Shown in pieces: positions 1 through 7,180 of a stretch of DNA of 25,441 nt; position 1 is the stretch's first letter, and each line of letters starts with the position of its first letter. The position numbers were made by a program, and so were the translations under genes. The stretch comes from a virus, in the IMG/VR virus record IMGVR_UViG_3300017963_000711, positions 1-25,441 of that record; one strand, 5' to 3'. Below the pieces are notes generated by a model that did no database searches, was not told the DNA's origin, and worked only from the letters and a program-made list of their open reading frames with translations.

Positions 1-167
1 AATTTTTCGCAAATGGAACCATTATGTTTTACATTTTTTGATTTCCAGTGACAATACGGTCGTTTGTGTTTATCTGCAAATGTCGATGAAAACATACAGG
101 TATAACAGGTTTCCCTTGCAGGAGGTCCGGCGTCTCTCTTGAAGAGAGACTTTAAAAATTTAAACAT
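1..167 (-). CDS. Small Cys-rich protein, 3' end beyond the window
   Basis: Reading leftward from an ATG at 165-167, the frame stays open for 55 codons to the window edge, so the gene is partial. A Shine-Dalgarno (AAAGGAT, complement of 172-178) lies 4-5 bases before the ATG. The peptide begins MFKFLKSLFKRD and carries CYTC at residues 21-24, YCHW at 38-41 and a further Cys at 53. This spacing (C-x2-C, C-x-W, C) suggests a small metal-binding fold. I do not recognise a family. It is divergent from everything on the + strand and has its own promoter-like sequence at 200-228. It probably marks the edge of another operon, perhaps early genes. That it is coding is fairly well supported by the start signals and open frame; function is unknown. 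Confidence 0.6.
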   Translation of the reverse strand, partial: MFKFLKSLFKRDAGPPARETCYTCMFSSTFADKHKRPYCHWKSKNVKHNGSICEK

Positions 168-199
168 CTTAATCCTTTCATTCATTTATAACTTTTCAT

Positions 200-228
200 A
201 ATATAGCACAATATTAATTTATTTAAAC
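200..228 (-). promoter_or_regulatory. Candidate promoter of the leftward Cys-rich gene
   Basis: On the minus strand a TATATT -10 (positions 205 to 200) is preceded after 17 bases by a weak GTTTAA -35 (228 to 223). The -35 overlaps the first copy of the 22-bp palindromic element at 222-243, so a protein bound there would touch this promoter. The predicted start is about 26 bases ahead of the ATG at 167. The -35 match is poor, so it may need an activator. Confidence 0.4.
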
Positions 229-243
229 TGTTTCGAATCGAAA
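222..243. repeat. 22-bp operator-like element, copy 1
   Basis: This copy matches positions 462-483 in 21 of 22 bases, in direct orientation. The 3' part is an inverted repeat, GTTTCGA-A-TCGAAAC (230-244). The 5' part is TTTAAACT. It overlaps the -35 of the leftward promoter. A symmetric core beside a promoter, repeated once in the same intergenic region, is what a dimeric repressor or activator site looks like. The protein that binds is not shown by the sequence. Confidence 0.65.
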
Positions 244-361
244 CATATCTTTTATTATCTGAGCGTGGTACTTTAAAGTCTTTAATTAAAACTTCAAGCT
301 AAAGCTCTCGTTTTCTTCCGTTGGGGAGTAAATATAAATAAGTTTAAAAAAGAGTATCCCA

Positions 362-404
362 TCGGAGCCCGAAGGGCGAGAATGCGGAAACCCGGTAGGG
401 CCGA
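362..404. other. GC-rich segment with three-way-junction folding potential
   Basis: In a strongly AT-rich intergenic region, about 65 bases (362-425) are GC-rich. TCGG 362-365 can pair with CCGA 401-404 and encloses two hairpins, GCCC-gaa-GGGC (367-377) and CCC-ggta-GGG (391-400). It lies between the two palindromic repeats. A 35-codon ORF (382-489) crosses it but has a poor ribosome site and runs through repeat copy 2, so I do not call it a gene. It could be a structured RNA or a single-strand DNA structure such as an origin. No known family was recognised. Confidence 0.35.
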
Positions 405-461
405 CAGGCGGGGGTGTGTTAGGGTAAAAAAAGGAACGCAAGGCAATATTAAGCAGTTTAT

Positions 462-483
462 TTTAAACTCTTTCGAATCGAAA
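462..483. repeat. 22-bp operator-like element, copy 2
   Basis: This is the direct repeat of 222-243 with one mismatch (C for G at 470). The core is TTTCGA-A-TCGAAA (471-483). It ends 2 bases before the -35 of the rightward promoter at 486-516, the place where an activator or a repressor would act. The spacing between copies is 240 bp, which would also allow looping by a bound protein. Confidence 0.65.
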
Positions 484-485
484 TA

Positions 486-516
486 TTGATTTTTAGTAAA
501 AATCTGATACTATAAT
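486..516 (+). promoter_or_regulatory. Candidate promoter of the non-coding RNA
   Basis: TTGATT (486-491) and TATAAT (511-516) are separated by 19 bases. An alternative -10, TACTAT (508-513), gives 16. The palindromic element copy 2 abuts the -35. There is no gene directly downstream, only the structured segment ending in the terminator at 788-822, so the promoter would drive an untranslated RNA. Confidence 0.45.
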
Positions 517-522
517 TTTACT

Positions 523-821
523 CACGTTCTATTTCTAAATTTTGAAACAAAGGGATTTAGTTATCCGAAAACAAAATATCAAGGTAAAAATAAGCTACTG
601 TTTTATAAGTGTTTTGCGCAGAGTGCTTATAAATATTTAGTTTTATCGTAGTCCGGCAGACGAAAAAGCATGCAAGATGGGTTCGATTCCCATATGCGGA
701 CTTGATATTGATTTAAGCTCATGACAGGCTTCGTGCCGTTAGTTCCTCTGAGCAAGCGCGTGTCTGCGTGTACGAAAGACAAAGCTTAAAAGACACCTTA
801 TCGAAACCGGGTGTCTTTTTT
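523..821 (+). ncRNA. Candidate structured non-coding RNA with a tRNA-like arm
   Basis: No coding frame with a ribosome site is found here, but complementarity is dense. AATATCAAG (575-583) pairs with CTTGATATT (701-709), a 9-bp long-range helix. Inside it are ATAAGC 590-595 with GCTTAT 625-630, and a tRNA-type T-arm (677-693). A second domain is closed by TTTAAGCT 712-719 with AGCTTAAA 783-790 and holds a hairpin TGTCT/AGACA (761-765 with 777-781). A Rho-independent terminator follows at once. With the promoter at 486-516 the product would be about 300 nt. The size and T-arm recall tmRNA, but no tag frame and no 3' CCA are visible. Y-RNA-like (YrlA) RNAs also mimic tRNA, but only loose motif similarity is seen and no Ro-type gene is in the window. 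The ends are inferred from promoter and terminator positions. Confidence 0.5.
651..702 (+). other. Minimal tRNA-like element (acceptor stem plus T-arm)
   Basis: A canonical T-arm is present: ATGGG 677-681, loop TTCGATT 682-688, CCCAT 689-693. It is followed by TGCGGAC (695-701), which pairs with GTCCG-g-CA (651-658) to give 7 bp with one bulged G. Only 18 bases lie where the D and anticodon arms should be, so it cannot be a working elongator tRNA. It could be a tRNA mimic inside the larger RNA, a deleted tRNA, or the 3' end of a tRNA captured as an attachment site. The retained 5' acceptor strand argues mildly against a simple attachment remnant. Confidence 0.5.
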
Positions 822-822
822 G
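788..822 (+). terminator. Rho-independent terminator of the non-coding RNA
   Basis: AAAAGACACC (788-797) pairs with GGTGTCTTTT (810-819) around a 12-base loop, followed by a run of T residues. It separates the upstream RNA from the promoter at 910-938. Confidence 0.85.
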
Positions 823-909
823 TGTTAATATTTCTTAATATTATTTTTCAATCTATAACTGAGCCTTAAGCTTTTTCTAGTATTTTTGTATTATTATCTT
901 GAAATAGTC

Positions 910-938
910 TTGACTTAATCAAAATACAGTGATATATT
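910..938 (+). promoter_or_regulatory. Promoter of the 987-2048 operon
   Basis: TTGACT (910-915), a 17-base spacer and TATATT (933-938) give a near-consensus housekeeping-type promoter, 49 bases ahead of the first ATG at 987. Confidence 0.7.
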
Positions 939-986
939 AATAACATAGAGAGCAGCAGTTAAGCTTTCGAAAAACGGAGAAAAGTT

Positions 987-1526
987 ATGAAAAACGAAAC
1001 GAAAGAATTAAAGCAAGAATACATCGAAGAAGCATTAAAGCATTTTAGTGAAAGCATGAGAAAATATTTCGAAAAAGAAACATCAGCAGTATACAAAACG
1101 GAGAACGGGAATTTGATATCTTTTTCAAAACCGAGTATCGAAAAGAGTTTTTGTTTCGGGTATGACGAATGCGTGGCAGAGAGCTACGAAGGGGCAAGTA
1201 AAGCGATGAGAGATTTAGATAAAGAAAAATTCTTTGAAAGAAATTTGGACTCCGTAAAGCGTGACCTGAGAGAGTTAGAAAACAGCGAAAAAATATACTT
1301 TTTGAATCAGTACAGAGGGGGCGGACGTATTCAATTTTTTGTATCCGAAGAATATAAACAAAAATTTCCGTCTGAAAAATACATTAACGCAACGTCGGCG
1401 GATCGGTCAAATTTAATTGAAATACAAAAGCAAGAAATTGAAAAATTTAAAAAAAGATTAAACACTTATTATAAAAGATATGGATTAAGCAAACTAAAAA
1501 CTTGGACATACAGCACTAATGACTAA
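987..1526 (+). CDS. Hypothetical phage protein, 179 aa
   Basis: The ATG is preceded by GGAG (976-979) at a 7-base distance. The protein is charged and mostly helical in composition, soluble, with no signal peptide or membrane segment. It has a short aromatic block near residues 54-61 (SFCFGYDE), which I have seen as a general pattern in small phage accessory proteins but cannot tie to a named family. The C-terminal third (about 130-175) is Lys/Glu-rich and may form a coiled coil. It is the first gene after the 910-938 promoter and is followed 70 bases later by a second small gene. Position suggests an early or accessory function; nothing in the sequence defines an activity. Confidence 0.75.
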   Translation: MKNETKELKQEYIEEALKHFSESMRKYFEKETSAVYKTENGNLISFSKPSIEKSFCFGYDECVAESYEGASKAMRDLDKEKFFERNLDSVKRDLRELENSEKIYFLNQYRGGGRIQFFVSEEYKQKFPSEKYINATSADRSNLIEIQKQEIEKFKKRLNTYYKRYGLSKLKTWTYSTND

Positions 1527-1560
1527 ATAACCCTGACGAGTCTTTGAGAATTAAGACGAA

Positions 1561-1574
1561 ACGCCCGAGGGCGT
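1561..1574 (+). promoter_or_regulatory. Short intergenic hairpin
   Basis: ACGCC (1561-1565) pairs with GGCGT (1570-1574) around a CGAG loop in the gap between the first two genes. There is no T-run, so it is not a terminator. It may stabilise or process the mRNA just ahead of the next ribosome site. Confidence 0.35.
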
Positions 1575-1596
1575 CGGTTATAAAGGAGAACAGAAG

Positions 1597-1872
1597 ATGC
1601 AGAAAGATAAATCTTATAAAAAAGCGGATTACCCGAACAAAATGCTTATATATGCGAAGAGAAAACATTTTGACGATGATTACTACAAGCTTAAAGCAAT
1701 TATTAACGACGGTTTTAAACTGCATGATTTCTACTGTTTTAGCGAAAAGACTGAGAATCAGATCAAAGAAATTATTAAAAAATTAAATTATAATAAGTTT
1801 TTTTCTTTTGTATACCTAAAGCACACGGAAAGCGGCTATTATAATATTTACGTTAAGAGAGGAGAGTTTTAA
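1597..1872 (+). CDS. Hypothetical phage protein, 91 aa
   Basis: An AAAGGAG site (1580-1586 region) sits about 10 bases before the ATG at 1597. The product is small, basic, and rich in Lys, Tyr and Phe, with no membrane segment and no Cys cluster. I do not recognise it. Its stop is 2 bases before the next ATG, so it is co-translated with the 57-aa protein that follows. A different-frame ORF over the same bases (1544-1786) lacks this ribosome site and is a shadow. Confidence 0.7.
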   Translation: MQKDKSYKKADYPNKMLIYAKRKHFDDDYYKLKAIINDGFKLHDFYCFSEKTENQIKEIIKKLNYNKFFSFVYLKHTESGYYNIYVKRGEF

Positions 1873-1874
1873 AA

Positions 1875-2048
1875 ATGCAAGAAAACAATAAATCAAGCCA
1901 CGGCGGTGCAAGAAAAGGAGCCGGAAAAAAGGGCATACCCGGACTCAAGAAGAGGACCTACAGAACTCTAGAGATCGAAGATCAAATAATTAAGCGGTGG
2001 CTCAAAAAGCGGCATGAAAATATTAAAAGAAATCCGATAATTAAATAA
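1875..2048 (+). CDS. Small basic protein with GGARKGAG motif, 57 aa
   Basis: A GAGAGGAGAG site (1857-1866) lies 8 bases before the ATG. The protein starts MQENNKSSHGGARKGAGKKG and continues KKRTYRTLEIEDQIIKRW. An N-terminal GGxRxGAGxK stretch occurs on many small phage and mobile-element proteins, often ahead of a short DNA-binding domain; that link is family knowledge, not shown here. The following segment (about residues 28-50) is a likely basic helix. It is the last gene of the 987-2048 operon, 2 bases after the previous stop. A nucleic-acid-binding or regulatory role is the best guess. Confidence 0.65.
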   Translation: MQENNKSSHGGARKGAGKKGIPGLKKRTYRTLEIEDQIIKRWLKKRHENIKRNPIIK

Positions 2049-2052
2049 TATT

Positions 2053-2079
2053 CTCGACGCGAAATTATTTCGTTTCGAG
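2053..2079. repeat. Imperfect 13-bp inverted repeat after the first operon
   Basis: Arms 2053-2065 and 2067-2079 match at 11 of 13 positions around one central T. The arms contain CGAAAT and TTTCGAG, close to the TTCGA core of the upstream repeats. No T-run follows, so it is either a weak mRNA-end hairpin or a binding site just ahead of the promoter at 2097-2125. Confidence 0.45.
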
Positions 2080-2096
2080 GAATTAATTTAAAAAGC

Positions 2097-2125
2097 TTGA
2101 CTTATATTCGAATATATATTATTAT
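2097..2125 (+). promoter_or_regulatory. Promoter with palindromic operator for the AbrB-like operon
   Basis: TTGACT (2097-2102), a 17-base spacer and TATTAT (2120-2125) form a good promoter. The spacer holds a perfect 14-bp palindrome, TATATTCGAATATA (2103-2116), so a bound dimer would block RNA polymerase. The first gene downstream is an AbrB-type DNA-binding protein, a class that usually represses its own promoter, so autoregulation is likely but inferred. Confidence 0.65.
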
Positions 2126-2175
2126 AAAATCATTGATATCAATCGCTGTGCAAGGTTGTTACGATGCACCAGTTT

Positions 2176-2259
2176 TGCTTATTTTTTACTGAGATAAATA
2201 AGCAGTTCTTATATTTTCCGACTACAGGGCAAAATATGACTGCCGTGAATAGTGCGGCA
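2176..2259 (+). promoter_or_regulatory. Untranslated leader with two hairpins
   Basis: The transcript from 2097-2125 would have a leader of about 150 nt. It contains TGCTTATTT 2176-2184 paired with AAATAAGCA 2196-2204 (9 bp) and TGCCG 2241-2245 paired with CGGCA 2255-2259. The latter is followed by TTTAATTT and ends about 10 bases before the ribosome site (AAAGGT, 2269-2275). This could attenuate transcription or control translation. A 61-codon ORF (2164-2349) across it is in the wrong frame for the real gene and looks non-coding. Confidence 0.4.
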
Positions 2260-2281
2260 TTTAATTTAATCAAAGGTCATT

Positions 2282-2455
2282 ATGCAAAGAAAAATAATAA
2301 GAAAAATAATAAAACAAGGCTCTTCCTATATGGTCACTATCCCTCCTGATTTGCTTAAAATATTAAAGCTTAAGCAGGGCGATAAGGTTGAGCTTGAGCT
2401 TAAGGGTAAGAGGGTTTTTATTAAGGCGGTGGAAAGTGAGAAAAAAACAAGTTAA
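2282..2455 (+). CDS. AbrB/MazE (SpoVT-AbrB) fold DNA-binding protein, 57 aa
   Basis: This gene is short, yet the family pattern is clear: a basic start, then GSSYMVTIPPDLLKIL, LKQGDKVELEL and KGKRVFI. This is the swapped-hairpin beta-alpha-beta arrangement (conserved S/xVTIP, then L-x2-GD-x-V-x-L) of AbrB, MazE and SpoVT dimers, which bind palindromic operators and often their own promoter. The start is ATG 2282 with AAAGGT about 7 bases upstream. The gene follows a promoter carrying a perfect palindrome (2103-2116). The downstream GTG gene overlaps its 3' end by 20 bases, the layout of a toxin-antitoxin pair, but that partner does not look like MazF, VapC or another known toxin. I read it as a phage transcription regulator; an antitoxin is the alternative. 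Confidence 0.8.
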   Translation: MQRKIIRKIIKQGSSYMVTIPPDLLKILKLKQGDKVELELKGKRVFIKAVESEKKTS

Positions 2456-2690
2456 AAGAGAAGTGGGCGGCGTCAAATTAGAATGCACGGCAGAAAGAGA
2501 AGACAAAAGGCTTGTCGTACAGACTTCTATGGATTTAGGCAGCGGCAAAAAAAAGCTTGTTAATCTTATTTCTAATAATATAACAGAGATGCAAGATCAA
2601 GCCCTTTTAAGCAGCCTGGACGATCAAGAGCTTCAGATGTTTCTTTGCAAAATAAAGATAGAGCTAGAAGTAAGAGGATATAAAGTATAA
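2436..2690 (+). CDS. Hypothetical partner of the AbrB-like protein, 84 aa
   Basis: The start chosen is GTG 2436, with GGCGGTGGAA just upstream; the frame opens earlier, but those codons lie inside the AbrB-like gene and are out of its frame. The product begins with a Lys/Arg-rich stretch (RKKQVKREVGG). A beta-like middle follows, and a helical C-terminus rich in Leu, Gln and Glu (about residues 45-84). There are no membrane segments. It overlaps the AbrB-like gene by 20 bases, so the two are translationally coupled and probably work together. It resembles no toxin family I know. A co-regulator or an uncharacterised toxin are both possible. Confidence 0.6.
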   Translation: MRKKQVKREVGGVKLECTAEREDKRLVVQTSMDLGSGKKKLVNLISNNITEMQDQALLSSLDDQELQMFLCKIKIELEVRGYKV

Positions 2691-2756
2691 GAAAGATAAT
2701 ATGAAATAGAAAAAGCAATGAAGTGCAGCTTTATAAGAAAGGTTAAAGAATGAGAT

Positions 2757-3164
2757 ATGAAAAAACATAAGAAGAAGTTGAATAAAGTTTATTGCATTGA
2801 TTGCTATTGGCATGCACTTGCTTATGGCTTAAGGAAAATTGTGGGAAATGCTAAAGCAAATTGCTATCATGTAGCAAATTTTTATAAGGTAGATACGCCA
2901 ACCAAGCCGGAAAATAAGATATTGGAAGAAAACCCGGAAACGCATTTAAACAAGGATAATGATTGCCGGCATTTTATTGGTTATAAAATAAAACAAGAGC
3001 ACTTCGAGGAGACAGAATATAAATATTTAATAGATTTTTGGCTTTTCGATGAAAATGTTGCTTTTTTACCTTATAAAAGGAAAGTAAAAAAAATTGCGTC
3101 AATATTGCAAAGTGAAGATAAAAAATACACGCAAGATGTTACTAATTTTATACAGAAAGGTTAA
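2757..3164 (+). CDS. Putative zinc-binding phage protein, 135 aa
   Basis: The N-terminal half has CIDC (residues 13-16), NCYH (35-38) and NKDNDCRHF (64-72). The spacing C-x2-C ... C-x-H ... N-x-N-D-C is a recurring small metal-binding pattern in phage proteins; metal binding is inferred. The second half is aromatic and charged, without recognisable motifs. The start is uncertain: the best ribosome site (AGAAAGG, 2736-2742) is 7 bases before another ATG at 2750, which opens only a 6-codon frame (2750-2770). The long frame starts at ATG 2757 inside that mini-ORF, so translation may be by re-initiation. The gene ends exactly where the next ATG begins. Confidence 0.65.
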   Translation: MKKHKKKLNKVYCIDCYWHALAYGLRKIVGNAKANCYHVANFYKVDTPTKPENKILEENPETHLNKDNDCRHFIGYKIKQEHFEETEYKYLIDFWLFDENVAFLPYKRKVKKIASILQSEDKKYTQDVTNFIQKG

Positions 3165-3254
3165 ATGATGACTGATATTCAAACCGGGGGGTTAATAGTT
3201 GCTGCGTTTTGCACTATAATGACAATATATATCGAATTTGGGTTGAAAAAATGA
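3165..3254 (+). CDS. 29-aa single-span membrane peptide
   Basis: This is a tiny gene with ATG-ATG at 3165-3170 and an AGAAAGG site (3154-3160) at a good distance. The peptide is MMTDIQTGGLIVAAFCTIMT followed by IYIEFGLKK: a short polar N-terminus, one hydrophobic segment (about residues 9-23) and a basic tail, so N-out/C-in is likely. Its stop overlaps the next ATG as ATGA (3251-3254), which supports real translation. The role is unknown; small one-span peptides in phage early and terminase regions are often membrane-acting. Confidence 0.6.
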   Translation: MMTDIQTGGLIVAAFCTIMTIYIEFGLKK

Positions 3255-3463
3255 AAATAACTAAAGAAGTTTTCGAAAACGGCACGCTTAAAGAAAGACG
3301 GACTCAAGAATTGACAATGACTGAATTTTTGTTAATGAACGAAGTTCATAAAGAATCAGATATGCAAATGGCCGAGGCTGTTCCGACTCAAGATGATTTT
3401 ATAATTGAAAGAAGTTTTAGGAACTTGAGCGAAGATTATAAGAAAAGGGAGTTTGATTGTTGA
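3251..3463 (+). CDS. Hypothetical acidic protein, 70 aa
   Basis: The start is ATG 3251, in a 4-base ATGA overlap with the membrane-peptide gene; a longer frame from 3209 lacks a ribosome site and would cover that gene. The product (MKITKEVFENGTLKERR...) is charged, probably a beta hairpin followed by helices, with no Cys motif except the final residue. No family was recognised. It overlaps the next gene by a few bases at the TTG start, so it is part of one tightly coupled run leading into terminase. Confidence 0.65.
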   Translation: MKITKEVFENGTLKERRTQELTMTEFLLMNEVHKESDMQMAEAVPTQDDFIIERSFRNLSEDYKKREFDC

Positions 3464-3777
3464 AGAAAATAAAAGAAATAATTGAATTATATGATAACTA
3501 TGTCAAGGCGGATCCGGTCGATAATTGGAGAACCGAAGAAGCGAAAATTCTTTATTTATTAAGGCATGCTATAGCTTACGACAAAAAGATTGACTCAAGC
3601 CAAAAAATATTTATGGTTAAAATGTCTGATATATTTACATTAGATCATTTCGTGGACTATTGCAGAGAGTTAGAAAAAGAAAAAGAAGAAGTTTATTCGA
3701 GAATTGAGAAAGGGAAAGAAAAACTCATGACTGATATGGCTAATTCATTTGATAGGTTTTGGGAAACATATGACTAG
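3457..3777 (+). CDS. Hypothetical helical protein, ~106 aa
   Basis: The start is one of two adjacent TTG codons, 3457 or 3460; AAGGGAG (3445-3451) is well spaced for either, and 3460 gives a TTGA overlap with the previous stop. The protein is helical, and about residues 70-95 are a Glu/Lys coiled-coil-like stretch. It is placed directly before the small terminase and overlaps it by 8 bases, but has no HNH or HTH motif. Function is unknown. Confidence 0.65.
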   Translation: MLKKIKEIIELYDNYVKADPVDNWRTEEAKILYLLRHAIAYDKKIDSSQKIFMVKMSDIFTLDHFVDYCRELEKEKEEVYSRIEKGKEKLMTDMANSFDRFWETYD

Positions 3778-4192
3778 ACCACTGACAGAAAAACAAACTA
3801 ATTTCTTGGATGCATACCTGAATGACCCTGAGCGCAAGGGGAATGGGATATTAAGCTATAAAAAAGCTTATAATTGTAAAAATATGTCAGATAAAGCAAT
3901 TTATGTCGAAGTCAGCAGATTGCTCAAAAACCCTGTTATATCCCTAAGAATAAAGGAATTTAAAGACAAAGTTGAAAAGAAAATTGAAGAAGAATTTGTA
4001 TACACAGCTTTAGATCATTATAATGAACTTGATGAACTGAAAAAAGAAGCAATGAAGCTTGACAAGCCCGACTTAAAAACGGCTCTTCAGGCCTCGATAA
4101 AAAAAGGCGAGCTGAAAGGTTTATACAAAATCAAAACTGAAATAACCGGCGATGTCAGTAAGATGCCGTTTGAAATTAAGATTGTGGAGTAA
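3770..4192 (+). CDS. terS: Terminase small subunit (Terminase_2 type)
   Basis: The ATG at 3770 has GGGA 5 bases upstream and gives a 140-aa protein starting MTRPLTEKQTNFLDAYL. The upstream TTG at 3749 is less likely. The N-terminal LTEKQ...F...YL, then SYKKAYNC, then VSRLLKNPVI is the hallmark of the Terminase_2 family: an HTH-like DNA-recognition domain (about residues 5-60), then a helical oligomerisation region (about 60-115), then a short C-terminal tail likely to contact the large subunit. It recognises the packaging site and loads the large terminase. It is followed by a small helical gene and then terL. Confidence 0.88.
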   Translation: MTRPLTEKQTNFLDAYLNDPERKGNGILSYKKAYNCKNMSDKAIYVEVSRLLKNPVISLRIKEFKDKVEKKIEEEFVYTALDHYNELDELKKEAMKLDKPDLKTALQASIKKGELKGLYKIKTEITGDVSKMPFEIKIVE

Positions 4193-4195
4193 AAA

Positions 4196-4438
4196 ATGAA
4201 AATAAACGTTCAGAATATTGATCAATATCAAGAAATAACTAAAAAGTTAAGTAAAGCCGAATCGGCAGTTGAAAAGTTGAAAAACTTTTCGCATAGAGAA
4301 TTCATAATAAAAAGCACGGGCTGGATGGACGAAATTATATTAACAGATGAAGCCATTATAAGCTCTATTATTCAGAATGAGATAAAAAAACTCGAAGCTA
4401 AAATAAGCACATGGCAAAAAAAGATTGAACTTTTATAA
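4196..4438 (+). CDS. Hypothetical coiled-coil protein between terminase genes, 80 aa
   Basis: GGAG (about 4186-4189) precedes the ATG at 4196. Two Lys/Glu helices (about residues 10-32 and 58-78) flank a short middle, so it probably forms a helical hairpin or coiled coil. It begins 3 bases after the small terminase stop and overlaps the large terminase start by 14 bases. This location suggests it is made with the packaging machinery, but it has no known motif. Confidence 0.65.
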   Translation: MKINVQNIDQYQEITKKLSKAESAVEKLKNFSHREFIIKSTGWMDEIILTDEAIISSIIQNEIKKLEAKISTWQKKIELL

Positions 4439-5744
4439 AAAATACAAACCTTTATTAGAATTAAACAATTCAAAGTTTTCGGTGATTGCCTTAACCGGCG
4501 GTCGCGGCTCAATGAAAACCGGGCATGCTTTGCGCGGCATTTTAGCATGTTCTATGCAGCAAAAAAAGAAGACTTGTTTCTTCCGGGAGACAAAAGAGAC
4601 GCTCAATGAGTCACTCAAGGCAGAGCTGGACAGTATAATTGAGCAGGATTTCGACAAAAGAGGCTTTAGTTACACAAAAGAATCTGTATCGCACATAAAT
4701 GGCTCTCATATGTTTTTCAAAGGCCTTAAAGAAGTTAACACAAAAGCCATTGAAAACCTCAAGGGAATTGCGACTTCAACAGATTTTTTTGTGGTTGACG
4801 AAGCTCAGGCTGTGAGTAAGCCGGTTTGGGATGTTTTAATTCCGACTCTCAGAAAAAAAGGGTGCGTCTTAATAGTTATTTATAACCGAATTGATAACAA
4901 ATTGCCCGTAGAAGATTGTTTATTTCTGGATCACGATATCATGGAGGCCCCGGAAGGGACTTATTTTGTCGAGGTCAATTATCCAGAAATAATGCATTTG
5001 AAAGACGAAAACAAAGAACCGCTTTTGAGTGAACAATTTGTCAAGAGAGCGGAATTAATCAAACAAAATAAGCCGTCTGATTATAATACTATTTATCTGA
5101 ATAAATTCAGAGATAAATTAGACAATGCCGTAGTTAAATATTTTGAACCGAAAGAAAATGTCAGAAAAATATATTATGTTGATGATTTACCGCTGCATTT
5201 ATGTTGCGATTTTAACGTAGATCCGATGTGTTGGTGTATGGCTCATGTTGTAGATGATAAGATTTATTATTTCGACGAAATAGTCATCGAGAATACAAAC
5301 ACCAGAGAAACAATGAAAGAATTTCTAACCAGATACGGAAAGCACAAAGATAAGATAATCATAAACGGCGACGCTTCGGGCGACAGCAGGAAAACCAGTG
5401 CAGACTTTTCGGACTATATGATTATAATGAAAGCTTTAAGCGATGCAGGGCTTGAATTTGAGGTTGAGATAAAAGGATTTAATCCTCCTGTCAAGAATAG
5501 AATCGCCGCTTTTAATAATAAATTATACACTTACGACGGCAAGCGAAATATTTTGATTGACCCGAAGTGTAAACAACTTATTTATGACTGTAAATACTTG
5601 GCTTATAAGCCCGGAACAAGTATAATAGATACACCGACGCATCGGCAACTAAAAGAAGATAAAGACTCAAAGTTTTTAGGGCATATGTTCGATGCGGCCA
5701 GTTATCCGGTAGATTTCTACTTTCCTGTTCAGGATGATACTTAA
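4425..5744 (+). CDS. terL: Terminase large subunit, ATPase-nuclease
   Basis: This is the 439-aa packaging motor. The N-terminal ATPase carries Walker A GGRGSMKT (residues 25-32), Walker B VVDEAQ (123-128) and a likely coupling segment around IVIYNRID (150-157). The C-terminal RNase H-type nuclease carries CDFNVDP (261-267), NGDASGD (314-320) and MFDAASYP (421-428), which supply the acidic metal ligands. Length and order fit the Terminase_3/PBSX-like group. The protein docks on the portal, pumps DNA by ATP hydrolysis and cuts the concatemer. The start is TTG 4425, because an in-frame stop lies at 4404-4406 and no ATG is close; it overlaps the previous gene. The oddity is Met where most P-loops have Gly before the catalytic Lys. 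Confidence 0.93.
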   Translation: MNFYKKYKPLLELNNSKFSVIALTGGRGSMKTGHALRGILACSMQQKKKTCFFRETKETLNESLKAELDSIIEQDFDKRGFSYTKESVSHINGSHMFFKGLKEVNTKAIENLKGIATSTDFFVVDEAQAVSKPVWDVLIPTLRKKGCVLIVIYNRIDNKLPVEDCLFLDHDIMEAPEGTYFVEVNYPEIMHLKDENKEPLLSEQFVKRAELIKQNKPSDYNTIYLNKFRDKLDNAVVKYFEPKENVRKIYYVDDLPLHLCCDFNVDPMCWCMAHVVDDKIYYFDEIVIENTNTRETMKEFLTRYGKHKDKIIINGDASGDSRKTSADFSDYMIIMKALSDAGLEFEVEIKGFNPPVKNRIAAFNNKLYTYDGKRNILIDPKCKQLIYDCKYLAYKPGTSIIDTPTHRQLKEDKDSKFLGHMFDAASYPVDFYFPVQDDT

Positions 5745-5757
5745 AGAGGATAAGCAA

Positions 5758-5838
5758 ATGAAAGAATATATTTCAATAAGCTTAGGTTGGATTTTTTTAA
5801 TAATTATAGTATTTATAATACCTTCCACTGAACAATAA
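5758..5838 (+). CDS. 26-aa membrane peptide after terL
   Basis: GAGGA (5746-5750) sits 7 bases before the ATG, an excellent ribosome site. The peptide MKEYISISLGWIFLIIIVFI then IPSTEQ is one membrane span with a short N-terminus. It is too small for most gene finders. It may be a small membrane effector; no family is known. Confidence 0.6.
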   Translation: MKEYISISLGWIFLIIIVFIIPSTEQ

Positions 5839-5866
5839 AGGATTAAAACAGAAAGGATTAAAAAAT

Positions 5867-6070
5867 ATGCCTGATCATGATGACCTAAAGTTTCTCATCG
5901 ATGCTTTGGAAGAAATCAAGCAATGGAATGACAGTTGTGCAAGGTGCTCAGGAAGAAAAAAAGAGGCCTCGGGCTGTCATTATTGCGGCAGCGGAAGCCC
6001 GCACAGTTATACCATTGCCGAAAAAGCTTTAGGCAAATATAGAAAACTAAAACAGAATGAAAGGGATTAA
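5867..6070 (+). CDS. Small zinc-ribbon-like protein, 67 aa
   Basis: AAAGGA lies 9 bases before the ATG. The core has CARC (residues 24-27) and GCHYCGSGSPH (36-46): two C-x2-C knuckles about 10 residues apart, the second followed by GSG as in DnaJ-type or zinc-ribbon motifs. The flanks are acidic (N) and basic helix (C). It probably binds one Zn ion; the partner is unknown. It is one of several Cys-pair proteins in this window. Confidence 0.7.
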   Translation: MPDHDDLKFLIDALEEIKQWNDSCARCSGRKKEASGCHYCGSGSPHSYTIAEKALGKYRKLKQNERD

Positions 6071-6071
6071 A

Positions 6072-6338
6072 ATGAGGAAGAAAAGCTTGAGGAAATATAT
6101 AGCCCAAAAAGCGATGGAAGATAAGGAGAAAATGCGAAAATTAAATCTGCAAGCAGATTATGCAGTCAAAAATTCTCGCAGCTACAGAGCAAGACAAATA
6201 GCCCTTTTAAGCTACTCCGAACCGGAAGAAAAGGATTTTACAATAAAAGATATTCTGTATTTAATAATAGCTTTGTTTGCAGTTATAGCGCTTCTTTCGG
6301 CGATGACTTTTTTGCTCGTGTCGGCAGGAATACTTTAA
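6072..6338 (+). CDS. Tail-anchored membrane protein, 88 aa
   Basis: The start ATG 6072 is chosen because AAAGGGA (6060-6066) is 5 bases upstream; an ATG at 6057 adds five residues without a better site. The first 55 residues are very basic and polar. The last 28 (ILYLIIALFAVIALLSAMTF and on) form one membrane span at the extreme C-terminus. This is a tail-anchored, cytosol-facing topology. It overlaps the next ATG by one base. Holin-like use is possible, but the gene is far from the lysis cassette. Confidence 0.65.
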   Translation: MRKKSLRKYIAQKAMEDKEKMRKLNLQADYAVKNSRSYRARQIALLSYSEPEEKDFTIKDILYLIIALFAVIALLSAMTFLLVSAGIL

Positions 6339-6556
6339 TGAAAATAGAAGACATGACAGTTAAGGAATTTGATGAATATTGGGCGCATAAAGACAGGCCT
6401 TGGAATAGTCCAGAAATAAAAAAAAGACGATCCGAATTAAAAACAGAATATAAAATAAGGCTTGAAGAAGCTTTGGAGACAAAAGACAAGAGGCCCTTAG
6501 ATGAAATAATGAAAGGGCAGCAGCCTATACCGCTTGCCAATTTTATTTTTAAATAG
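6338..6556 (+). CDS. Hypothetical charged protein, 72 aa
   Basis: The ATG overlaps the previous stop (TAATG) and has AGGA 8 bases upstream. The product is helical and highly charged, with WAHKDRPWNSPEIKKRR at about residues 15-31 as a notable Trp/Arg stretch. No membrane span or metal motif is present. The reverse-strand frame across it is a shadow. Function is unknown. Confidence 0.65.
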   Translation: MKIEDMTVKEFDEYWAHKDRPWNSPEIKKRRSELKTEYKIRLEEALETKDKRPLDEIMKGQQPIPLANFIFK

Positions 6557-6833
6557 AGGTATTAAATAAATAGAGGCATTAAACAATGAAAATATATAAA
6601 TATCACGGAATAAGCTGCTGGGGTCTTTGTGGGGGCAATGGCGAGATTGTAGTAATGGCAGAGAGCAAGAACAAAGCTTTTGAATTAATAAAACAGCGTT
6701 TAGAATCCGAAGAGCAATTAGAGCATAATTCATATATTACAGAAACGGAATTGATTGAAATAAAACCAGAAGCCGAACAGGTTTTGGCATATGCTGAATG
6801 TCCGTGCCGGCATATAGATTAAGAGGTATTAAA
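6555..6833 (+). repeat. Three copies of an AGAGG[T/C]ATTAAA leader motif
   Basis: The 12-base unit occurs at 6555-6566, 6572-6583 and 6822-6833. The second and third are extended to AGAGGNATTAAACAATG and serve as ribosome sites of the two following genes. The match is longer than a Shine-Dalgarno needs, which suggests local duplication or recombination of gene starters. Confidence 0.55.
6586..6822 (+). CDS. Hypothetical protein, 78 aa
   Basis: GAGG of the repeated leader lies about 10 bases before the ATG. The protein has CWGLCGGNGEIVVMAES at residues 11-27 and ends with ECPCRHID; Cys pairs near both ends could form disulfides or hold a metal. The middle (NKAFELIKQRLESEE) is helical. It resembles small phage proteins that present a beta strand followed by a helix, but I cannot name a family. 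Confidence 0.65.
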   Translation: MKIYKYHGISCWGLCGGNGEIVVMAESKNKAFELIKQRLESEEQLEHNSYITETELIEIKPEAEQVLAYAECPCRHID

Positions 6834-6835
6834 CA

Positions 6836-7180
6836 ATGAGTGAAACGATAAAAGAAGTAATTGACGAATATTTGGAATGGAAAAAAGAAAAATCTAAGCT
6901 TTTCCGTGAAAAGCTAAAACCCGGCGAAATATCAGAGGAAGATTTAAGAAAAACCAAGGCCGCTCGAGAGCAGGAACGCATAAAGGCACAAGCAGCTTTG
7001 CAAGAATATGAGCAGGGCAAAAGCACTTTTAAATATCGTTTGACTAAAGCTATTTTTTTAGGTAATGGACTACCCGAAAAATATTTCAATACTCAAGCAG
7101 CTTTGGGTCTTGTTAAAGGGTCTAGCATCCTGACTATAGACGATTGGATAGATTTCCTCAAGACTCACAATGTAGTTTAA
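6836..7180 (+). CDS. Hypothetical protein, 114 aa
   Basis: The last gene before the non-coding segment uses the repeated leader as its ribosome site. The first 60 residues are a charged helix (KEVIDEYLEWKKEKSKLFRE, then an Ala/Gln/Arg stretch). The C-terminal half is a compact, less charged part (LTKAIFLGNGLPEKYFN, then DDWIDFLKTHNVV). No known domain is evident. The frame on the other strand is a shadow. Confidence 0.7.
   Translation: MSETIKEVIDEYLEWKKEKSKLFREKLKPGEISEEDLRKTKAAREQERIKAQAALQEYEQGKSTFKYRLTKAIFLGNGLPEKYFNTQAALGLVKGSSILTIDDWIDFLKTHNVV

Follow-up and report, generated by a model that had tools for sequence, protein, structure and literature searches.

We tentatively interpret positions 523–821 of an uncultured phage genome as a gene for a phage noncoding RNA that carries a tRNA-like domain, would be freed by RNase P, and may act as a regulator. 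Computation reveals a T-arm, a basal stem, a terminator, and a break in base composition, in a segment with no evident coding sequence and no match to a known RNA family. These are real features of the sequence. A noncoding RNA is probable, and a tRNA-like domain within it is plausible, with moderate support from a single case without divergent homologues.

The intergenic region and its predicted transcript

The window (the whole stretch of DNA that was analysed, 25,441 bases at 38% GC) is the IMG/VR virus record IMGVR_UViG_3300017963_000711, from an uncultured bacterial virus, and encodes terminase, portal, capsid, and tail proteins. The candidate RNA lies in a long intergenic region (186–986) between two gene blocks, of which the left runs leftward and the right rightward. 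A second contig, IMGVR_UViG_3300017971_005415, has 100% identity over window positions 1–7039 and extends the window leftward by 927 bases, whose small hypothetical genes are on the minus strand; because the RNA region is identical there, an assembly error is not likely. The features to which we refer below are as follows.

229–245, no strand: 17-bp palindrome TGTTTCGAATCGAAACA upstream of the leftward genes, a candidate operator (motif count, direct repeat)
469–485, no strand: second palindrome copy, immediately before the –35 hexamer of the RNA promoter (motif count, direct repeat)
486–516, plus strand: promoter-like TTGATT (486–491), 19 nt, TATAAT (511–516) (direct reading)
523–821, plus strand: predicted primary transcript of the noncoding RNA, from the –10 box and the terminator
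523–650, plus strand: AT-rich, weakly structured 5′ part (GC 0.28 at 523–640; fold of 523–643, z 0.16)
575–583, plus strand: 5′ arm of a claimed 9-bp long-range helix with partner 701–709 (present; P 0.145 in shuffles)
641–821, plus strand: GC-richer structured part (GC 0.42–0.48 versus 0.25–0.28 in the flanks)
644–707, plus strand: predicted tRNA-like domain, with an 11-bp bulged basal stem (644–655/697–707), a small hairpin, and the T-arm (MFE –19.6, z –2.71)
651–658, plus strand: acceptor-like 5′ strand GTCCGGCA, pairing with 695–701 with one bulged G
677–693, plus strand: T-arm ATGGG-TTCGATT-CCCAT, the only strict one in the window (0.023 expected; pair probability 0.91–0.997)
694–701, plus strand: one unpaired A, then the acceptor-like 3′ strand TGCGGAC (695–701) (direct reading)
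712–790, plus strand: second hairpin domain (MFE –23.9, z –1.47)
791–821, plus strand: intrinsic terminator, stem 791–798/809–816 and then a T run (MFE –9.6, z –2.95)

Both promoter hexamers noticed in an earlier note on this DNA are present, but their spacing is poor: the 19-nt spacer is longer than ideal, and a promoter scan allowing 16–18-nt spacers did not list the site. The terminator that the same note called clean holds up, with its stem, T run, and strong z score. No convincing ORF was found in 523–821, and none, judged by eye, has an evident ribosome site. Palindrome matches number four on both strands together, at the two listed sites, versus 0.19 expected, and each copy of the palindrome (also written TTTCGAATCGAAA) lies within a 32-nt direct repeat that is 84% identical at a spacing of 240. 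The palindromes are likely the operator of a phage regulator. Since one copy precedes the –35 hexamer and the other precedes the leftward genes, the arrangement suggests that the RNA is under shared control with the leftward operon. By eye, we take a 57-aa ORF at 2282–2455 (MQRKIIRKIIKQGSSYMVTIPPDLLKILKLKQGDKVELEL...) for a putative SpoVT/AbrB (MazE-type) DNA-binding protein, and it may regulate through both palindromes. Elsewhere in the intergenic region, which is 25% GC, a 74-nt patch at 355–428 reaches 62% GC; folding of both strands gave no signal (z about 0), and the patch has neither an Rfam match nor a convincing BLAST relative.

The fold of the 299-nt RNA as a whole is only modestly more stable than those of its shuffles (z –1.87). 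Positions 523–640 have the 28% GC of other AT-rich parts of the intergenic region (24–28%) and 523–643 folds no better than shuffles, whereas 641–821 is 42–48% GC; thus the functional RNA is probably 641–821 rather than the whole 299 nt, and 523–650 is possibly a leader that would be taken off by processing. Within the structured part, the 8-bp closing helix claimed for the second domain can be read in the sequence (TTTAAGCT at 712–719 with AGCTTAAA at 783–790), but its pair probability is 0.06–0.28 and the z score of the domain, about –1.5, is near chance. The claimed 9-bp helix fared similarly. Its strands are complementary (AATATCAAG at 575–583 with CTTGATATT at 701–709), but a Watson–Crick helix of at least 9 bp arises in 14.5% of shuffles of the 268-nt body, so that it is not significant, and it is a minority state (pair probability about 0.24–0.30). 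It competes with the local stem 644–655/697–707, which is more stable, has 11 bp, extends the acceptor, and has a probability of about 0.6–0.7. The double claim on C701, by the acceptor and by the 9-bp helix, is thus settled in favor of the local domain, within the limits of a thermodynamic model.

The only other copy of the RNA that we found is that in the 100% identical contig, and identical sequence gives no covariation information; within its own genome the RNA is present once. IMG/VR protein searches (tail/amidase-like protein, terminase, first ORF after the RNA, capsid, and portal) returned only the identical contig and one distant 26% match, and an IMG/VR search for the exact T-arm pattern found no divergent relative. 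A search for near relatives of the whole window among 50,697 phage records found none, and when phages and plasmids were searched for distant relatives of the RNA region the matches were weak (best E 0.2–0.6). In IMG/VR, the operator sequence led to four other contigs, but they carry no T-arm RNA and, apart from the motif, bear no real likeness to the window. The linker plus T-arm pattern had one IMG/VR match, which lies inside the tRNA array of a 183-kb phage; it gave no divergent relative.

The tRNA-like domain

The perfect T-arm reported at 677–693 is present and beyond chance: in 300 dinucleotide shuffles, strict T-arms are expected 0.023 times per window on both strands, or 0.09 times when G-U pairs are allowed. 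It scores 19.3 bits against a T-arm model, on which genuine phage tRNA T-arms score 8–21 bits, and the Rfam tmRNA model matches the same positions at 13.3 bits. That a small piece of the RNA would fold like half of a tRNA is probably not chance.

The acceptor-like pairing is less clear-cut. Its seven pairs and one bulged G between 651–658 and 695–701 exist as complementarity, but the last two (657–696 and 658–695) have a probability of about 0.005, and in the predicted MFE structure 656–658 pair with 671–673 instead, which would leave three nucleotides between T-arm and stem. When the 40 nt before an arbitrary position are searched, a seven-pair acceptor in which G-U and one bulge are allowed turns up in 19% of trials, so that the pairing is not impressive alone. 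Its GTCCG/CGGAC core passes a stricter test (five contiguous Watson–Crick pairs, at least four of them G-C, lying 0–3 nt after and 8–25 nt before a T-arm-sized hairpin) that is passed in 0.3% of local shuffles; this P of 0.003 is supportive but not clean, because the thresholds were set after seeing this case and the Mycobacterium phage elements described below.

The fold of 644–707 was equalled by 1 of 200 shuffles. With the T-arm fixed and the flanks shuffled, it beats 96% (P 0.037); wider or narrower cuts do worse, and the result is marginal, with P ranging from 0.037 to 0.23 by cut. The domain departs from tRNA geometry: the T-arm is set off from the stem by 1–3 nt, one G is bulged, and there is no CCA. 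The one-nucleotide gap is also found in most of the Mycobacterium phage elements. The best reading of 644–707, judged from its sequence and predicted fold, is a tRNA-like domain that lacks D and anticodon arms, because chance would seldom give both a T-arm and a correctly spaced GC-rich stem and because phage RNAs of the same layout with strong covariation exist elsewhere. Thus, of the earlier proposal of a tRNA-mimic RNA, the tRNA-like domain stands with moderate support, while the long-range helix does not reach significance.

From these features we infer the transcription, processing, palindrome control, and function of the RNA. Transcription would run from about 523, at a promoter beside the operator-like palindrome, to the terminator at 821. 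The structured part, 641–821, would open with the acceptor-like stem and T-arm, with a short linker replacing the D and anticodon arms, and host enzymes that read a T-arm/acceptor minihelix, most likely RNase P, would bind this domain. A cut by RNase P near 650/651 would free a roughly 170-nt RNA from the AT-rich leader, and the freed RNA would act as a regulator via its second hairpin domain. The rise in GC from about 641 sits close to the proposed cut. Compared with the RNase P substrate pattern (a continuous acceptor/T-stem stack with a 3′ RCCA), the domain has the stem and the T-arm, with an interruption of 1–3 nt and no CCA. Bacterial RNase P accepts model hairpins of acceptor and T stems, and phage regulatory RNAs, including the C4 RNA of P1/P7, are RNase P substrates (PMC4919922). 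The C4 antisense RNA, as a phage regulatory RNA cut by RNase P (PMC4919922), is a proposed parallel only; it differs in that the window RNA has no Rfam match and no antisense target was found, the complementarity to the phage being at most 12 nt, about chance level. Use of the domain as an enzyme tether, by analogy with YrlA (PMC8394870), is possible but has no Rfam support. If the reading holds, phages equip their own transcripts with the least part of a tRNA that is still recognisable, by which host RNA-processing enzymes can take hold of them.

Elements of similar layout in Mycobacterium phages

A BLAST search with 668–704 returned many phage tRNA genes together with unannotated intergenic sites in Mycobacterium phages Cuke (MG757156.1, L030), Fowlmouth (MH834613.1, L020), and MrMiyagi (MT776806.1, L021); the family extends to Papyrus (KF416342.1, L031) and Indlulamithi (NC_048824.1, L032). 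We rejected these sites as tRNAs, since ARAGORN was silent and there was no Rfam match. The element is 47 nt long and consists of a 5–6-bp acceptor-like stem, the linker AAYGGTTTTCG, a T-arm, usually one nucleotide, the returning strand of the stem, and ACGA (for example, in Cuke, L030 1192–1238, 1578–1624, and 2537–2583). One variant in MrMiyagi (L021 2573–2640) has a 6-bp acceptor (GCCCGC/GCGGGC), and its linker carries an inserted hairpin.

Across 12 copies, 98.3% of cells pair, double changes occur at 8 of 10 pairs, and the covariation score is 0.941; shuffles give 0.201, and sliding the partners gives no more than 0.18. A model of the element (R1) finds 13–15 candidate sites per genome in the five phages, the weakest of them doubtful (cut-offs E ≤ 1 for Cuke, Fowlmouth, and MrMiyagi and E ≤ 0.05 for Papyrus and Indlulamithi). 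Almost all of the sites are on the coding strand. In the alignment of 43 matches, which was fitted to R1, 97.6% of cells pair, with 157 double-change cells versus 48 in shuffles. This pattern of paired substitutions shows that phages carry predicted acceptor/T-arm RNAs, without D and anticodon arms, under selection for pairing. The records carry no annotation for the elements, which lie in the gaps between consecutive genes; most of those in Cuke, Papyrus, and Indlulamithi begin about 8–15 nt past a stop codon and end 35–50 nt before the next start. By analogy, such placement would resemble the tRNA punctuation of polycistronic RNA and looks like mRNA punctuation.

The window RNA is not a member of this family, as it matches only R1 positions 18–37, the T-arm (19.3 bits). 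It shares with the elements an acceptor-like stem, a short linker where a tRNA has its D and anticodon arms, a T-arm with GGTTCGATTCC, the usual single nucleotide between T-arm and stem, and a phage origin. The elements, in contrast, are 47 nt long, number about 13 candidate sites per genome, occupy gene gaps, and have the AAYGGTTTTCG linker and a 3′ ACGA, whereas the window RNA is single copy with a longer linker, no ACGA, and its own promoter and terminator. The existence of elements with covariation-supported pairing makes the tRNA-mimic idea for the window RNA more plausible. A wider generalization, which we regard as doubtful, is that the window RNA is one of scattered, unrecognised phage RNAs that bear an acceptor stem and T-arm for host tRNA enzymes, serving as punctuation in Mycobacterium phages and here heading a free-standing regulatory RNA. 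The Mycobacterium phage family is probably more interesting than the window RNA, and the search prompted by the latter has yielded a case that covariation supports and that can be tested, since phages of Mycobacterium smegmatis are easily grown. In the titles and abstracts retrieved from open PMC, neither phage tRNA-like elements of this kind nor these Mycobacterium phage elements are described.

Known RNA classes and alternative explanations

At gathering thresholds no Rfam family matched, and at relaxed thresholds the sole tRNA-related match was of the T-arm alone to tmRNA models. The statement that this is not a normal tRNA agrees with our results: ARAGORN found 0 tRNA genes, no RF00005 match was listed in the Rfam scans of the region, and neither program recognised a four-arm cloverleaf. 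Likewise, neither of the two mimic classes considered earlier, tmRNA and bacterial Y-like RNA, fits fully. For tmRNA (RF00023), only 677–693 matches, at 13.3 bits versus a gathering score of 47, and ARAGORN recognised neither a tmRNA nor a tag reading frame. The window RNA and tmRNA share a T-arm, and neither has a normal D or anticodon arm, but the window RNA has no CCA and no 5′ acceptor at its transcript start.

A divergent YrlA-type (bacterial Y) RNA, in which a basal stem carries a T-arm and a small D-arm-like hairpin, is a very improbable identity. In published YrlA, D, T, and acceptor-like arms accompany a large basal stem (PMC8394870), and the MFE structure of 644–707 does share its topology, with an 11-bp basal stem, a small hairpin, and the T-arm. 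Against this, no Rfam scan gave a Y RNA match even at E 10, the hairpin has just 3–4 bp and is not a real D-arm, and no Rsr/Ro60 gene was recognised in the window. It is also unlikely, and we disfavor the view, that 677–701 was copied from a host tRNA 3′ end as a phage attachment core, or is what is left of a degenerate tRNA. The attachment reading has to be taken seriously because the anatomy is that of the 26-bp attP core of mycobacteriophage Ms6, which comprises a T-arm and 3′ acceptor strand (PMC1762012), and phage tRNA genes are prominent among the BLAST matches to 668–704. An attachment core, however, predicts no matching 5′ acceptor strand, yet one is present, and no integrase was seen among the proteins scanned in 26.4 kb, including the 927 bp left of the window. 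Across 84,980 genomes, not one tRNA contains the 20-mer GTTCGATTCCCATATGCGGA, which spans T-loop and acceptor. Its single genome match, in Legionella impletisoli (L005 2464–2490, GTTCGATTCCCATATGCGGAATCGAAC), is an inverted repeat that happens to contain the 20-mer and is not a tRNA.

Coincidence deserves somewhat more weight, although we still think it on the unlikely side: the segment would be a phage sRNA of the ordinary sort, or a terminated leader, whose hairpins are stable, and its T-arm likeness would come from reading many sequences. About 1 in 43 such windows should contain a strict T-arm by chance, many windows were read, the folds are only modestly stable (z –1.87 for the 299 nt), and the 9-bp helix and second domain are near chance. 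What argues for the tRNA-like domain is that the T-arm lies inside the promoter–terminator interval beside a GC-rich stem at tRNA-like spacing (P 0.003) and that its 19.3 bits are as high as the scores of genuine phage tRNA T-arms.

Three further cases come from other phages. In Stenotrophomonas virus Jojan60 (ON045087.1, L026 1445–1527), an 83-nt RNA matches both ends of the Rfam tmRNA model at 61.8 bits, ends in CCACCA, and leaves no room for a tag-coding part; from its sequence, it is possibly a mini-tmRNA in a phage tRNA array. Microbacterium phage Quenya (MT889365.1, L023 about 1439–1527) has an orphan T-arm RNA adjoining a tRNA-Gln gene, with a 7-bp acceptor (GGGCCTG/CAGGTCC), inner hairpins, a tmRNA-like look, and no Rfam match at the gathering score. 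In Klebsiella phage Carvaje (L024 1449–1539) and Salmonella phage FSL SP-076 (L025 1449–1539), an orphan T-arm sits on a basal stem of about 16–19 bp; the shape is Y-RNA-like without an Rfam match, and the pairing is kept across phages of the two genera despite sequence differences.
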